A DNA stretch of 64,000 nt from Xanthomonas sp. DAR 35659 (GTDB taxonomy: Bacteria; Pseudomonadota; Gammaproteobacteria; Xanthomonadales; Xanthomonadaceae), in contig NZ_CP162488.1 of assembly GCF_041242975.1 (NCBI RefSeq), positions 4,392,001-4,456,000 of the forward strand, read 5' to 3'. Within the stretch, counting starts at the first letter, position 1. Each line of letters opens with the position of its first letter. The notes beneath the pieces are model-generated. The model saw nothing but the letters and a program-made list of their open reading frames with translations. It made no database searches and was not told where the DNA came from. The translations under genes were made by a program, and so were the position numbers. Positions 54,585-61,540 of the stretch are shown piece by piece.

Positions 54585-55048
54585 TCACGACTCCCAGAGT
54601 GATCTTTCTATAACCACCCATTTACCATCACGTCTTCTAAGAAAGGCATCGGCATTTTTCCCCGTTGGCGGAAATCCAAACTCGACGAACGCCGCATCGT
54701 GATCGAAGTAAATTTTCTCGACAGTAACAAATCTGGCTTGCCGGCTGCGCCCCAAGGATGACGAACGAATTATCTTAATATCGCCATTCACCACACCGCA
54801 AGCCTCTACCTTTTTCGGCATTCCATCCCACAGAAAAACAGCTTTCTGGGAGGGGAAAAGTGTAATTTTGCGTAGCTTTTGATCTCCGGGTCATCTGCTA
54901 CGGCCCTTAGCACATCGAAGTGAGTGGAATTGCATCCTGTATCTTCCGAGGAACCGGGTGCATCCGAACACCCAAGCAGAGCAAGCGCAACATATGCAAC
55001 TAAAGAAGGCCGAGCGCTTTTAGCTAGAATGCGGAATCTTCGTGCCAT
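54585..55048 (-). pseudogene. Lipoprotein gene broken by a one-base deletion
   Basis: The frame from ATG 55046-55048 gives a lipoprotein leader (MARRFRILAKSARPSLVAYV, lipobox LALLGC) and then mature sequence to KLHFSP before running into frame-shifted residues and a stop at 54806. The continuation, SQKAVFLWDGMPKKVEACGV to RRRDGKWVVIERSLWES (stop 54585), lies in the -1 frame. Adding one C to the CCCC run near 54853-54856 would rebuild a single protein of about 155 residues. Function is unknown. It is low in GC, lies downstream of the RHS toxin and its partner, and an IS sits 7 bases before its start codon. Sequencing error is possible. The 278 bases between it and the oxidase gene show nothing. 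Confidence 0.65.
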
Positions 55049-55055
55049 AGACTTA

Positions 55056-55922
55056 GAGTCGCTAACAAAACTAAGGAAGGATCCGTAGGCAGATGATCGA
55101 ACAGGCAATCGAGAGCCACGCCAGATGGATATCGATGCGACGTTCGAATCGGATGCGTAGCTTGCCCATGCCTGCGAACCACGCGTGAGTGCGTTCCACG
55201 ACCCAGCGATGGCGCCCCAGCCGGTCGTTGCGCTCGATCCCCTTGCGAGCGATGCGTGGCGTGATGCCCCGCTTCTTGAGGTGATGGCGGCAACGATCGA
55301 TGTCGTAGGCCTTGTCAGCGTGCAGTTTGCCTGGCCAACGTCGTGGGCGCCCTGGCTTGCCGGCGATCGGCGGCAAGGCATCGACCAGTTCCTCGAAGAC
55401 CACCGAGTCGTGCCGGTTGGCTCCGGTCACGCAGAACGCCAAGGGAACGCCATTGCGATCGACGATCAGATGCCGCTTGCTGCCGAGTTTGCCGCGATCG
55501 GTCGGGTTCGGTCCGGTGTACGCGCCCCCCGGGGGGAGGCCACACTGGCCGCGTCCAGGCTGGCTCGGCTCAGGTCCAGCTTGTCGGCTCGCCGCAATTC
55601 GGCCAGCAGAACCTGATGCAGGCGATGCCAGACGCCGGCGGCCTGCCAGTCGCGCAACCGGCGCCAACAGGTCATGCCGCTGCCGTAGCCCAATTCCAGG
55701 GGCAGTTCTTCCCATGGAATGCCGGTCCGCAGGACATAGACGATGCCGTTGAGGGCTTGCTGATCGCTGACGCGAGGCCGCCCTCCTTTGGGCGAGGGCT
55801 TGACTGGCGGGATCAGCGGTTCGATGCGCTTCCACAGCGCGGCGGGGATCTCTTTGCGACGGGCCATGTCGCTAATTTTGCCACATGCGAATCTGCGTTC
55901 AACTACGTTTTGTTAGCGACTC
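55056..55922 (-). mobile_element. IS5-family insertion sequence (IS427-like), 867 bp
   Basis: Terminal inverted repeats GAGTCGCTAACAAAAC (55056-55071) and GTTTTGTTAGCGACTC (55907-55922) are perfect over 16 bp. They are flanked by TTA on both sides (55053-55055 and 55923-55925), the likely target duplication; CTTAG can also be aligned as a 5-bp duplication. The single transposase is split into two frames. Intact ends and duplication imply recent insertion. Confidence 0.92.
55071..55867 (-). CDS. IS5-family transposase, two overlapping frames
   Basis: Frame A starts at ATG 55865-55867 (MARRKEIPAALWKRIEPLIP) and holds the N-terminal DUF4096-type domain up to SLDAASVAS. Frame B continues PPGGAYTGPNPTDRGKLGSK and carries the DDE region (DRNGVPLAFCVTGANRHDS, then KLHADKAYD and RWVVERTHAWF) to the stop at 55071. 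The switch falls in a C6G6 run near 55530-55541 (plus strand coordinates), where slippage is plausible. Programmed frameshifting is known for this IS group, so the gene may be active; a disabling indel is the alternative. Confidence 0.88.
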
Positions 55923-56296
55923 TTAGATCTTAACCCAGCCCAAGGTTTAAAATATATAAACACCGCTACTATGGCCACAAGCAGTCCATCAAGCACAAGC
56001 ATCCACATGTCATGCCAAGGCGTTCCTCTCGCATACATTATCTTGGCGATGGCCATTCCGGATAAACACCCGACTAATGGAGGCAAGAGAATCGCGCCAT
56101 ATTTTATCTTCAGAGAAAAATAAAGAGTCGAGATTCCTAAAATTAGAACCAATGGTAAAGAGAAAAAGTACCAAGCACTCAATATAATAGCCGCCTGCAA
56201 TAAGCTTAACGACTGAATTGGGGTCAAAGCAACAGCAATCAATCCAGGGGCGATTGCTGCAACCAGAAGTGAAAAAAACGCCCTACCTATATTCAT
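55913..56296 (-). CDS. Small four-helix membrane protein, candidate RHS immunity protein
   Basis: 127 residues with four predicted membrane helices (about residues 7-27, 34-58, 67-87 and 96-115). I do not recognise the family. Its ATG (56294-56296) shares one base with the RHS toxin stop (TGATG); a GTG at 56306-56308 is an alternative start that would overlap the toxin. Position directly after an RHS toxin and tight coupling are hallmarks of immunity genes; a membrane immunity protein would fit a toxin acting at the inner membrane. The last four residues and the stop come from the IS inverted repeat, so the native C-terminus has been altered. GC is low. Confidence 0.6.
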   Translation of the reverse strand: MNIGRAFFSLLVAAIAPGLIAVALTPIQSLSLLQAAIILSAWYFFSLPLVLILGISTLYFSLKIKYGAILLPPLVGCLSGMAIAKIMYARGTPWHDMWMLVLDGLLVAIVAVFIYFKPWAGLRSKSR

Positions 56297-59200
56297 CACT
56301 TCGGACACCCAGAGCTTGGGGAATTCTCATCGATAAACCGTTGCATCTGATCTCCCCATACAATCTCATTTACTATCCAGTTGACTATTCCGCCCTGCAC
56401 ACTCTTATGGTGCTGAACAGCGCTTGTGCCTTCTCCATAAGTATGCGCAATACCATTGGTAACGGTACGGGCCACATAGCCAGGATCAAAAAAACTGCCT
56501 GGAGCAGTAATATCAACCACCAAAGGCTGGCCTGTTTTCAAATCAATTGTTAAATAAGTAGTCACGAAGTTAGAGATGGGCAAATAAGGAACCCCAGCAT
56601 CGTTCCTTTTAGTTCCAGATGATGTCGCAGGCCTAGCATTGGGTGATGGAGTCGGATGATTTATAAGATCCTGCATTACACCATTGGCATTTGCGTACCC
56701 AAGTTTACGTCTGACATCATAATGATGGTACATCAACTCGCTCCCATCAAAATCCTTCCATCCAAGCGGCGTTGGCAAACTAAACGAAGGACCGCCAGGA
56801 TAATCACAGCGCGTAGTTCCGCCTGCTGATTTGCAAGACAGCCCGATGGGATCGATAGAAACCAGAGGCCTTGAGTTAATGTAGCCATAAGTCGAAATCC
56901 CACCACCCAACCCAACAGGATCGCTCTGCACATATCGCCCAGTGCCGGAATCGTAGTCGCGGAAGTAGTTTTGGTTGAATCCAGTCGCCGCATCGTACCG
57001 CTGCCCCGGGAAGCGCATATCGAACACGAACGCCGTGCCGTCACCATCCGGATCCTGGTTCGGTGGTGTGTTGCCGAAGGCCTCACCCTTCAGATCCCAT
57101 TTCCAGATCGCCACGTCGCGGACCGGATCGATCACCGCACGTGGCGTGCCCAGATGGTCCGGCTGCACGTAACGCAGGCTGTTGTTGGCCAGCACGCCCA
57201 CCGGCAGGTCATCCAGCCAGATCGCTTGCTGCAGCGGGGTGCCGTTGTTGTCGTAGTCGCCGACCCAATGGCCACTTTCGTCGTACAGCGTGTAGGTATT
57301 GGTCTTGCCCACCCGCCGCACCTGCTCACCGCGGCCGTTGTAGGCGTAGTTCATCACGACCGTTCCGGCGCGCTTGACCTGCCCGAGCCGGCCGCTCGCG
57401 CCGTACACCAACTGCAGCGCGGCGCCACCGATGGAGGTGGTGTTGCCGCTTGCGTCGTAGGTGCGCGCAGTCCCCGCCACCGCGTCCAGCCGGTGGTTGG
57501 TGGTCGGATAGGTGTAGGTCTGCGTGACGGTATTGACCTTGGCGCTGAGCCGGTTGCCGGTGGCATCGTAGCTGTAGCCGTCGATCACCGTACCGGTCGG
57601 GCCATCTTTGAATGCAGTCAGCCGGCCCATAGGGTCGTAGTCCAATTTGATCACCGGTGCGGTGTTGCCCGGCGCGGTCAGCGCGCTGAGATTGCCTACC
57701 GGGTCGAAGGCGAAGCCCACCGCCAGCCCGTTGCTGCGCGTGTCATTGACCGCCAGCGGGCGGTAGTCCTGGTCGAGCACCCGCTGCATCGGTCGGCCGT
57801 TGCCGTAGGTCCAGCTCGCCACAGGGCCGAACGGATAGTAGGTGGCATTGCCCAGCAGCACCTGCCGGGTGCCGCCGGCCGGGGTCACACCCACTTCCGT
57901 GACCTGGCCCTGCGCATTGCGAACATAATCCACCACCGCGCCATCGGGATAGGTGAGCCGGCTCAGCTGGCCTGCCTTGGTATACGCGTAGCGCAGCACG
58001 AACACCTTGCCGTTGGTGGTCTGCACCTTGCGCACCAAGTCGCCGAAGCGGTCGTAGCAGTAGTCGGTGCTGCCGCTGCCGTCCTGCATCCGGGTCAGGC
58101 GGCCGACCGCGTAGGTTTCGCCGCTGGCGCAAGTAGCCTGGCTGACGTCGTAGGTGTAGGTGACGTCGAGGCTGCTGGTCGGATAGGTGACCTGCGTCAA
58201 CCGGTTCAGCGCGTCATAGCCGTAGGTGGTCTGGACGTTGCGCGCATCGGTCTGGGTCGCGCGGTTGCCGGCGCTGTCGTAGGTGTAGGTGGTGACGCCC
58301 GTATCCGGGCTGGTGAGCTTGGTCAGGTCGCCCAGTCCGTTGTAGGCATAGGTGGTGTCCAGGCCCTTGGGGTCGGTGACCTGGGTCAGGTTGTCCAGCG
58401 CGTCGTAGCCGAACTTGGTCTCCGCCGCGATGCCGCCCACGTCCTGCAGCGTGCGCGCCAGGCGGTTGAGCGGGTCATAGTCGTTCTGGGTGACGTGACC
58501 GAGCGCGTCGGTCACGGTTTTGGTGTTGCCGTTGGCGTCGTAACCGAAGTCGGTCGGATCGCCCTGGGCGGTAGCCTGCGTGGCCAGCTGGCCGAGCTGG
58601 TTGTACACGCGCGAGAGGGTACGCTTGAGCGTGCCCGATGCGTCCTTGGTGTCTTCCTTGGCACGATTGCCAGCGTTGTCCAGGGTGTAATGGATCATAT
58701 TGCCAGCGTTGTCGGCGACATCGGTCAGTCGCTGCGCAGCGTCGTAGGTGAAGCGTATGAACGCACCGTCCGGCTGCGTGACCTGCTTGACCAGGCCAGT
58801 CGGCCAGTAGTCGATCAGGGTGATGCGGTCGTCACTTTCACCGCCGTCGTCGGCACCGCGGATCTTGCTGGCCGTCAGCCAGCCGCGTGGATGGTAGCTG
58901 TAGTCGGTGATCACGCCATTGACGTCCTTCACCGACAGCACGCGTCCGGCGCCGTCATAGGCCAAATATTCGGTGACATGACCCGAGGCGTTGGCGATGC
59001 TGTGCAGGTCGCCTTTGCGGAAAGCACAGATCCCGCCGGTGGCACAGCCGGCGTCGTCCGCCGTGTACCAGGCGTACGTAATAGTGTCCGCTACATCCGA
59101 GCGCGGTCCGTCAACGCTGCGCAGCAGGCCCACCTGCGGGCAGTCTTGCCCCACAGCTTCGCAGTAGGTCAGCGTGGTGGCACGCGTGTCGCCGGTGGCG

Positions 59201-61077
59201 TTGTCCCGCACCGTAATGCTGCTGGGCTGGAGACGTGCATTACGGGCGATGCTGGCTTCCCGATTACCTACGGTCCTTTTTACCAAGCGGTTGCTCTCTA
59301 CCGCCACACGCCTCTCAGTGACATGCTGCCCAGCAGTGCCGGTTGCCTCGGTGGTGCTGGTTATGCTGATAGCACCTGCGATCGGATCGTCGGCCTCGGC
59401 ATAAGCGTAGTTCGTCACAATGCCGCGACGATCCGTCACCGATTGCAGCCGTCGACGGAAGTCGGTGCCTTCAGGAAGATAGGTCCGGCTGATACTGCCA
59501 TTGCTTTCGGCGATATCGTTGACCTTGCGTGGAAGACCGCTTGCACCGCTATCGGTCAGCGCATAGGTACTCTGCTTGCCCAACGCATCGGTAACAATCG
59601 TCGTACCAGTTTGAGTGTATTCCAGGCGCACGCCATCGACGCCGACATCGGTTTGGGCGCAATCGCCCGAATGGCGACTACAGATCACACGCCCCGCTGC
59701 GTCATAACCGAACCAGCTATAGCGGCGATTGTCTTCGGCGGTCACTCCGGTCAGGAAGCCCGGGAATCGCGTGTCCTCATAGTGATAAGTTCTGACGCCA
59801 CCATCGGCGTAGGTGACGCTAGCAAGTTCTCCGGTCTGCATATAGGCATAGGCCGCTAATGCCTGGCCGCCCACCAGAACTGCCGATATCAGGGAGTCAT
59901 CACCAGACGCAAGGTATTGGAAGTCCAGTCGGCGACCGGTCGAATGGGCAATACTGAGCAGACGACCGCGGCTATCGTACGCATAAGCCAACGATGTCCC
60001 ATCCTCGAATTCGCGGCGCTGTATCAGACCCGAAGCGTTGAAGAGAATCCGCTCCTGAGCACGCGACAGCTGCCAACCAGTCTCTTGCTGCACCAACCTG
60101 TCGCCACTACCGTCATTTGCTTCGTAGTAGCCACCAATCTTCTCGAAGGCAGTCTGGGTGCCATCCGCCCCAATCAGCCCTACCTTCAGCTCTGTTCCCG
60201 GCGAAGAGGATGTACTGTCCACGCCAATGCTCAGACGCAGGTTATGCGAATGCGTCCAGCCAACTCCCAAGGCACCACCAGCCGTACTGGTCAGAGAATG
60301 ATAGGTGCGGTCGAATCTGATCCATCCCAGATCGAAGTCGGGCTCGGGCTGCAGCTTGTCCCCGGTGGTGGGGTCGCAGGGATTTCCGGCAGTGTCGCAC
60401 TGCTTTGGCAATACGCTACTGAAGTACTGGTTACCAGTGGATTCAAACCATGACGACATAACACACATGCCCAGATCATCCCGCCACTCCATGGCAATCG
60501 GATTCGGGCACTGCGCCTGACGGCTGCGCTGCGCATATAGATTGCCATCATTTCTAGAATGGCACTGGGACGTAGACGGATCGAAGTAAAAATTGACAAC
60601 CCCGATAAGAATGTCCTCAGCGAGATCGCTCCCATCATCACCAGTTCCTCCGCAGGGTATTCCCGTCCACGGCTGAGTGATCGGAAACTCTGTGGCCGGA
60701 CAAGGTGGATCCTGTGTGGCCCCAGCCTTCATCGCGGAGAAGAGCACCTCTTCAGAGTCATAGTACTGACCATCGTATTCGTATTCCCAATCCGTCGTGA
60801 CAAGCTTGGCGGGCTTGAAGGTGTAGTCATAGATCACCTTATCCGGCAGTACTATTGTGTTTCGCACTGCCCACTCGAAAGCACCATACTGCTGATATAT
60901 GGAAAAGTTCGACTCAATACTCTCCTGCGCCAGGCGTTCGGTGGCAAGCTTCTGAGAGCTGGACGCGACGATAGCCCACTCCTTCTTCACCTCCTGCGCG
61001 CCCACAGAGGCAATGCGGCCGAGCGCAAGCATCACCAGCATGCCGCACGATAAGATCTTCAGGAAACGTTCGAACAT
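56296..61077 (-). CDS. RHS-repeat polymorphic toxin with signal peptide
   Basis: 1593 residues. A Sec-type leader (residues 1-27, CGMLVMLALGRIASVGAQ) and an N-terminal region precede a DUF6531-like segment (CDPTTGDKLQPEPDFDLGWI, GGALGVGWTHSHNLRL). Many YD/RHS repeats (GYDALNRLTQVTYP, YNGLGDLTKLTSPDTG) and the RHS core (YVQPDHLGTPRAVIDP, PGQRYDAATGFNQNYFRDYD) follow, ending in IDPIGL at residues 1409-1413. The last 180 residues (56299-56838) are a low-GC tip of no family I recognise, with DITAPGSFFDPGYVARTV and HTYGEGTSAV. RHS barrels enclose and release such tips into rival cells. AGGAG lies 7 bases before ATG 61075-61077. No PAAR, VgrG or other type VI gene is nearby, so Sec export is suggested. 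Confidence 0.92.
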   Translation of the reverse strand: MFERFLKILSCGMLVMLALGRIASVGAQEVKKEWAIVASSSQKLATERLAQESIESNFSIYQQYGAFEWAVRNTIVLPDKVIYDYTFKPAKLVTTDWEYEYDGQYYDSEEVLFSAMKAGATQDPPCPATEFPITQPWTGIPCGGTGDDGSDLAEDILIGVVNFYFDPSTSQCHSRNDGNLYAQRSRQAQCPNPIAMEWRDDLGMCVMSSWFESTGNQYFSSVLPKQCDTAGNPCDPTTGDKLQPEPDFDLGWIRFDRTYHSLTSTAGGALGVGWTHSHNLRLSIGVDSTSSSPGTELKVGLIGADGTQTAFEKIGGYYEANDGSGDRLVQQETGWQLSRAQERILFNASGLIQRREFEDGTSLAYAYDSRGRLLSIAHSTGRRLDFQYLASGDDSLISAVLVGGQALAAYAYMQTGELASVTYADGGVRTYHYEDTRFPGFLTGVTAEDNRRYSWFGYDAAGRVICSRHSGDCAQTDVGVDGVRLEYTQTGTTIVTDALGKQSTYALTDSGASGLPRKVNDIAESNGSISRTYLPEGTDFRRRLQSVTDRRGIVTNYAYAEADDPIAGAISITSTTEATGTAGQHVTERRVAVESNRLVKRTVGNREASIARNARLQPSSITVRDNATGDTRATTLTYCEAVGQDCPQVGLLRSVDGPRSDVADTITYAWYTADDAGCATGGICAFRKGDLHSIANASGHVTEYLAYDGAGRVLSVKDVNGVITDYSYHPRGWLTASKIRGADDGGESDDRITLIDYWPTGLVKQVTQPDGAFIRFTYDAAQRLTDVADNAGNMIHYTLDNAGNRAKEDTKDASGTLKRTLSRVYNQLGQLATQATAQGDPTDFGYDANGNTKTVTDALGHVTQNDYDPLNRLARTLQDVGGIAAETKFGYDALDNLTQVTDPKGLDTTYAYNGLGDLTKLTSPDTGVTTYTYDSAGNRATQTDARNVQTTYGYDALNRLTQVTYPTSSLDVTYTYDVSQATCASGETYAVGRLTRMQDGSGSTDYCYDRFGDLVRKVQTTNGKVFVLRYAYTKAGQLSRLTYPDGAVVDYVRNAQGQVTEVGVTPAGGTRQVLLGNATYYPFGPVASWTYGNGRPMQRVLDQDYRPLAVNDTRSNGLAVGFAFDPVGNLSALTAPGNTAPVIKLDYDPMGRLTAFKDGPTGTVIDGYSYDATGNRLSAKVNTVTQTYTYPTTNHRLDAVAGTARTYDASGNTTSIGGAALQLVYGASGRLGQVKRAGTVVMNYAYNGRGEQVRRVGKTNTYTLYDESGHWVGDYDNNGTPLQQAIWLDDLPVGVLANNSLRYVQPDHLGTPRAVIDPVRDVAIWKWDLKGEAFGNTPPNQDPDGDGTAFVFDMRFPGQRYDAATGFNQNYFRDYDSGTGRYVQSDPVGLGGGISTYGYINSRPLVSIDPIGLSCKSAGGTTRCDYPGGPSFSLPTPLGWKDFDGSELMYHHYDVRRKLGYANANGVMQDLINHPTPSPNARPATSSGTKRNDAGVPYLPISNFVTTYLTIDLKTGQPLVVDITAPGSFFDPGYVARTVTNGIAHTYGEGTSAVQHHKSVQGGIVNWIVNEIVWGDQMQRFIDENSPSSGCPK

Positions 61078-61185: not shown

Positions 61186-61540
61186 ATGAAAAACACGACA
61201 GTCATCACGAGTTCCGACGAACGCGCGTTTCTGCAGATCGGGCCCGGCAACGATGTGAGTACCCGCCCTATTGCACGCCGACTAGGACGCCGTGCGCTCA
61301 CGCTGTCGCGTGAAGGGATGCGCTAGAACGGACCTGTGTACACCACCAGTTTCCCGGGTAAGCGCTATCGGCAGTGTCGTAGCGCCTAAGGCCGTAAGCC
61401 CAGGCTCGTCGAGGGCAGCACTGTGTTTCAGAGCGTACGTGACGATCTGGTTACGTATCGCTGGCCGCCGCCCCAGCAGTTTGCCGCCAAGCTCATGCGG
61501 TTGCGCCTGCAAGTTGAGAGCATTTACCGCAAACGGGAAA
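61186..61540 (+). pseudogene. IS30-family transposase remnant (N-terminal third)
   Basis: A frame beginning at ATG 61186 gives SDERAFLQIGPGNDVSTRPI, then ARRLGRRALTLSRE, the helix-turn-helix region of IS30 transposases, then TAG (61324-61326). Continuing in the same frame: NGPVYTTSFPGKRYRQCRSA, TAA (61387-61389), GRKPRLVEGSTVFQSVRDDL and VTYRWPPPQQFAAKLMRL, matching the next conserved IS30 block. The catalytic DDE part is missing. Two nonsense codons and truncation show it is dead. It lies 108 bases upstream of the RHS toxin start, between it and kdpE; the rest of 61078-61715 shows nothing else. Confidence 0.7.

Follow-up and report, generated by a model that had tools for sequence, protein, structure and literature searches.

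The 64,000-nucleotide stretch analysed here, called the window (Xanthomonas sp. DAR 35659, contig NZ_CP162488.1, positions 4,392,001 to 4,456,000), carries on its minus strand a gene for an RHS polymorphic toxin (56296..61077) that starts with ATG, encodes 1593 amino acids and is followed by a small gene that very probably provides immunity. The protein contains both RHS repeats (18 stretches of RHS_repeat in a Pfam scan, E 9.9e-57) and an RHS-associated core end (NCBIfam Rhs_assc_core, E 3.6e-15), the combination that identifies an RHS polymorphic toxin. Its domains run from a predicted signal peptide (residues 1-27; 60997..61077) through an N-terminal domain lacking a Pfam match (residues 28-230; 60388..60996), DUF6531 (residues 231-311; 60145..60387; Pfam E 4.6e-12) and the RHS repeats to the core end with its DPxGL motifs (residues 1333-1413; 56839..57081) and, finally, a C-terminal toxin-like tip of 180 amino acids that belongs to an unnamed family (residues 1414-1593; 56299..56838), all on the minus strand. 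The initial annotation had described an RHS protein of 1593 residues with an N-terminal signal peptide and a DUF6531-like region, and the open reading frame, the Pfam scan and the signal-peptide rule agree on this. The same scan indicated no SpvB or TcdB domains, as found in the B/C components of Tc toxins, and no PAAR domain at the N-terminus. The domain of residues 28-230 recurs in P0014 and in the paralogue L009, and has one homologue in the protein database. By eye it was plausible that this domain is common to Sec-exported RHS proteins, an idea that was dropped when an iterated profile over 75 N-termini matched only the window protein, L009 and P0014, with an additional short partial match in P0002.

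Comparison of the window gene with L009 (6204-10718, plus strand), a near-identical paralogue with a different, short tip, indicates complete DNA identity over codons 481-800, 53% identity over codons 1361-1440 and 1-33% beyond. L008 shares the later core only, at 89-95% over codons 721-1040 and 85-94% over codons 1041-1360. A core up to 100% identical to that of L009 is therefore joined to an unrelated tip, and base composition changes along the locus, with a G+C content of 0.53 for the N-terminal domain, 0.645 for the core, 0.464 for the tip and 0.432 for the immunity gene. As read from the aligned genes, this is the classical pattern of tip exchange between paralogues. The short tip of L009 presumably resembles a JAB/DUF4329-type domain.

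The stop codon of the RHS gene overlaps by one base the ATG of a gene of 127 codons (55913..56296, minus strand), whose own stop lies inside the end of an insertion sequence. The encoded protein has no match in curated Pfam-A and is predicted, with low confidence, to form about four transmembrane helices (residues 2-24, 30-63, 68-89 and 94-126). Given its tight linkage to the tip, it is read as the immunity protein, and the linkage recurs across the tip family: of 25 distinct tip loci, the window included, 23 have a small protein with three to five hydrophobic segments next, and only 2 of 133 control open reading frames have such a neighbour. (Two entries, L011 and L040, apparently represent the same place in Arenimonas terrae and were counted once.) In the two exceptions the next gene is another cassette in one case and an IS30-type transposase in the other. 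At a Ramlibacter locus (L014, 6524-7305, plus strand) two tandem, related transmembrane immunity-like genes follow a single tip. In the window, beyond the insertion sequence, two pieces in different frames (54585-55048, minus strand) could, judged by eye, be the remains of a single disrupted gene of lipoprotein type, which may have been another immunity gene.

Eleven relatives of the tip were identified in the protein database, all at the C-terminal end of RHS-type proteins, and no PAAR domain is among the precomputed Pfam domains of these eleven, some of which are fragments. No Pfam family matches the window tip; over 12 tip members, one matches Hpf1_C (E 8e-4) and one NIP_1 (E 0.12), neither a fitting model. 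A sequence search of the PDB gave nothing meaningful (best E 0.07), and PADLOC matched neither the tip nor the putative immunity protein. Of 395 genomes searched in the family, at least 19 contain the tip, with at least 21 matches, and among 369 genomes sampled over the class the host genome was the only match listed; both counts are lower bounds, as most listed genomes had more first-look candidates than the eight or nine that were scored. Loci come from Arenimonas, Dyella, Rhodanobacter, Ramlibacter and one metagenome-assembled genome, among others. At 16 of the 25 loci, again with the window, the protein passes the signal-peptide rule, and five more (L015, L040, L041, L047 and L055) are positive by eye only. 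At 10 of the 24 other loci (L043, L044, L045, L046, L050, L051, L052, L054, L056 and L014) the tip is carried by a protein of just 224-329 residues, in which a rule-passing signal peptide leads into the final segment of the RHS core and then the tip, and in most cases the transmembrane gene comes next; L047 and L055 are further short signal-bearing forms by eye. These short proteins are spread over eight genera of the family and Ramlibacter. Since a predicted signal peptide accompanies the tip even where the shell is missing, short tip cassettes need not be silent leftovers.

The confident AlphaFold model of the window tip (pLDDT 89.5) resembles in part the START/Bet v 1 helix-grip fold, which is defined by an antiparallel sheet around a long C-terminal helix. 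Across 35 related tip sequences, which are not 35 independent events, the cysteines fall into two pairs, neither of which is ever half-present. Both C2 and C11 (tip numbering) occur in 31 sequences, in slightly shifted columns in three of these, and four sequences contain neither; of a helix cysteine, at either of two places near tip residues 48-53, and the first cysteine of the C-terminal CxC motif, 19 sequences have both and 16 have neither. In the window tip and P0008 the two cysteines of the second pair have apparently been lost together, among relatives in which the pair persists. This joint retention and loss suggests that the pairs form disulfides and hence that the tip acts in an oxidising compartment, that is, in the periplasm or outside the cell, which is in line with the predicted Sec export and with a membrane-embedded immunity protein.

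The signal peptides discussed here were predicted by a simple home-made rule and not by SignalP. The window gene, L008 and L009 pass this rule, and the one PAAR-RHS gene of the genome (L007) fails it. The rule places the best cut of the window protein after residue 20; given that L009 shows a clean AEA|Q cleavage site at 27, A27 is the likely cut in the window protein as well. Among the DUF6531-RHS N-termini of 20 genomes of the genus, 40 of 62 pass, compared with a mean of 4.25 and a maximum of 10 in shuffled controls, in which six random starts per shuffled N-terminus served as a crude substitute for real start codons. The 62 exclude the five of the host genome, and seven of them stop short of the frame start and were counted as lacking a signal; near misses such as L102, L103 and L108 look signal-peptide-like by eye and failed the rule. 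DUF6531 occurs in 19 of the 20 genomes (67 matches), PAAR in nine, with only two PAAR matches in frames that also carry DUF6531, and TssC, a component of the type VI secretion system (T6SS), in seven. Counted by hand, signal-bearing DUF6531-RHS genes are found in 6 of the 7 TssC-positive and 11 of the 13 TssC-negative genomes (10 of 12 without the host genome). As they occur alike in both groups, Sec-type RHS genes do not track the T6SS and are the usual kind in the genus. The initial annotation had treated an exported RHS protein without type VI neighbours as an oddity: the Sec signal is likely to stand, and the oddity does not, this being the common form in the genus. An association of the tip itself with T6SS absence (5 of 13 TssC-negative genomes, none of 7 TssC-positive ones; p ~0.08 by hand) is not claimed. 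In five DUF6531-RHS frames (L077, L093, L095, L096 and L098) very long N-termini with repeated GRVLxxGG-like motifs look by eye like Kelch-type propellers.

It had also been noted that the window lacks type VI components, and a search for orphan VgrG or PAAR genes had been proposed. Given that the host genome is a single contig of 5.415 Mb, scored as 100% complete, with the window inside it, this could be extended genome-wide: VgrG/Phage_GPD, TssC and Hcp each gave no match in the complete genome, the E. coli positive controls being matched in every case, and the only PAAR match lies ~2 Mb from the window gene within a different RHS gene. The cognate VgrG that, if present elsewhere, would have counted against the initial reading was accordingly not found. 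Type VI delivery of the window protein was rejected on these absences and on its own lack of PAAR. The PAAR-RHS gene itself (L007, 5966-10843, minus strand; G000:C1:2433345) encodes 1625 amino acids with an N-terminal hydrophobic stretch, in a genome where VgrG, TssC and Hcp have no match, and is possibly a relic or borrowed effector; genome G085, in which TssC is likewise without a match, also contains a PAAR-DUF6531 frame. In the TssC-positive genomes G186 and G261 three RHS N-termini (L060, L061 and L062) are PAAR-like or DUF4150-like by eye, and the genus may thus hold both types of RHS delivery.

With a probability of about 0.68, we consider the window gene to encode a Sec-exported, antibacterial RHS polymorphic toxin that is paired with a transmembrane immunity protein and acts at the periplasmic face of the inner membrane. 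In RHS proteins generally, the repeats form a shell and the C-terminal domain is released at the DPxGL core end, a motif that is present here. The N-terminal signal would carry the protein through Sec, the RHS repeats would build the usual shell, and the core end would separate the C-terminal domain. The outer membrane might then be crossed by a type II secretion system (T2SS), or else by way of vesicles or lysis. The 180-residue tip, probably disulfide-bearing and helix-grip in shape, would act periplasmically on a neighbouring cell, targeting its inner membrane or one of its lipid-linked molecules, and the roughly four-helix protein encoded from the overlapping ATG would shield the producer, whose own periplasm also meets the toxin. 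The steps through Sec, the shell and immunity are well supported by the predicted features of the locus. Beyond this, it may be speculated that the tip represents the first polymorphic toxin known to have a lipid-binding fold of the START/Bet v 1 type. This oxidised, Sec-exported domain would bind or cleave a lipid or a lipid carrier of the membrane from its periplasmic face, the four-helix immunity protein would counter it within the membrane, and the domain would travel on RHS shells as well as, in relatives, in the form of a small free toxin secreted by its own signal peptide; we hold this extended proposal to be rather doubtful.

Several points weigh against the toxin reading. First, the signal call depends on a simple rule that some shuffled sequences also pass, and for 4 of the 25 tip loci (L012, L013, L049 and L053) not even inspection by eye reveals a signal peptide. 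Second, a folded RHS shell would also have to pass the outer membrane, and the search for T2SS parts covered the secretin GspD, which the genome encodes. Third, the fold match is partial: the best Foldseek hit has an E of 1.6e-3 (PsbP), the query-length TM-score does not exceed 0.48 among the best 50 rows, and with PsbP and phosphoglucomutase in the first rows no fold is assignable from Foldseek alone. In the five-cysteine tips the last CxC cysteine is left unpaired by the proposed scheme. Fourth, the immunity protein is poorly modelled (pLDDT 64.6), and in an eight-protein alignment six of its counterparts are only 14-21% identical to it, with P0013 at 74%; its last residues and stop are supplied by the insertion sequence. 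Lastly, the window tip lacks the second cysteine pair and has D in place of N109, against N in 34 of the 35 rows, and may for these reasons be diverged or weakened.

This last point raises the possibility that the window gene is a silent or decaying copy, a recombination reservoir or degenerating member whose tip and immunity gene have been damaged by mobile elements. Of the alternatives to a working toxin this one fares best, although it is improbable. The missing cysteine pair and the change at N109 would fit it, as would two mobile elements that flank the pair. An IS5-type insertion sequence (55056..55922, minus strand) with DUF4096 and DDE_Tnp_1 frames sits in the final codons of the immunity gene; it had been called live-looking, and the perfect 16-bp end repeats, the TTA duplication and the presence of four copies at 99-100% in the genome, the window's included, with a fifth at 80%, bear this out. 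Upstream of the RHS gene, the supposed dead IS30 relic (61186..61527, plus strand) is indeed the N-terminal third of an IS30-type transposase, matching its first 120 residues (40% over 121 amino acids, E 5e-18). Nevertheless, the 1593-residue frame is intact, the predicted immunity helices precede the insertion save for the last few residues, and the core retains stretches identical to L009.

A host-directed or other non-bacterial role, in which the secreted protein would act on a eukaryote or serve as a surface or adhesion protein, would suit the predicted signal peptide and the T2SS secretin, both compatible with general secretion. However, this is unlikely for two reasons: nearly every tip locus has a membrane protein next, as self-protection against a bacterial target predicts, and swapping of tips between paralogues is what polymorphic toxins used in competition typically show. 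Least probable of all is a stranded type VI effector, formerly delivered by a T6SS that the lineage has lost, since although loss of the T6SS with retention of RHS genes has some footing in the PAAR-RHS genes that survive in the host genome and in G085, the window gene starts with a signal-like N-terminus and lacks PAAR, signal-bearing RHS genes are as usual beside TssC as away from it, and the tip relatives are likewise without a listed PAAR.

The Sec-exported toxin favoured here has several known counterparts. PAAR-RHS type VI effectors, of which L007 is an example, share with it the RHS repeats, the DPxGL core end, the tip and the immunity gene, but the window protein has no PAAR and its genome no VgrG, TssC or Hcp. 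In Gram-positive bacteria an exported toxin has no outer membrane to cross. WapA of Streptococcus suis (PMC12704120) is likewise an exported RHS-type toxin outside the T6SS and differs in its Gram-positive host. Another counterpart is the Sec/T2SS class of RHS polymorphic toxins catalogued by Zhang et al. 2012 (PMC3482391), whose Table 1 defines a T2SS/Sec class by a signal peptide and lists RHS among the repeats; it shares the signal peptide, a variable post-signal domain, RHS repeats, a variable tip and an adjoining immunity gene, and differs in that the window tip and its four-helix partner lack a curated Pfam-A match. Within its first 300,000 characters, that text uses none of the terms helix-grip, START or Bet v. 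For MafB of Neisseria (PMC4287609), Sec-dependent secretion of a polymorphic toxin was shown in a Gram-negative bacterium said to lack a T6SS, and the outer-membrane step is likewise unexplained; C-terminal cassettes with downstream immunity genes are a further likeness. MafB, however, is described as globular with a Neisseria-specific N-terminal domain, whereas the window protein is an RHS shell with another N-terminal domain, and the Pfam scan, with RHS_repeat and DUF6531 as its only matches, gave no MafB-N domain (DUF1020). Lipocone toxins (PMC12419801), which in their simplest form combine the toxin domain with just a signal peptide or a lipobox, have transmembrane or lipoprotein immunity partners, one with a four-transmembrane core, and are read as acting in the periplasm or membrane; they resemble the window pair in combining a toxin domain with a membrane immunity protein and differ in having Lipocone domains rather than a helix-grip-like model. 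No helix-grip toxin was met in the polymorphic-toxin/SRPBCC or Rhs/START-domain literature covered, including PMC12419801, and the window tip is not described in the covered text of PMC9513982, PMC13340143, PMC4287609 or PMC12994826; for short secreted RHS cassettes, no search was aimed at earlier descriptions beyond the one that yielded the last two of these. A literature search joining rhs repeat, type II secretion, contact-dependent and orphan found no paper.

RHS toxins without a T6SS are thus already known in principle, and the locus is of interest for the unnamed tip family, for the membrane protein that accompanies it, for the indications of disulfides and for the forms secreted free of a shell. 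Much work on RHS proteins concerns type VI delivery; given that Sec-type genes are common in this genus with or without a T6SS, a route for RHS toxins outside the T6SS in Gram-negative bacteria becomes testable. The tip and its membrane partner, together with the short secreted forms, would offer a tractable pair for probing how a helix-grip domain may act on the bacterial membrane.
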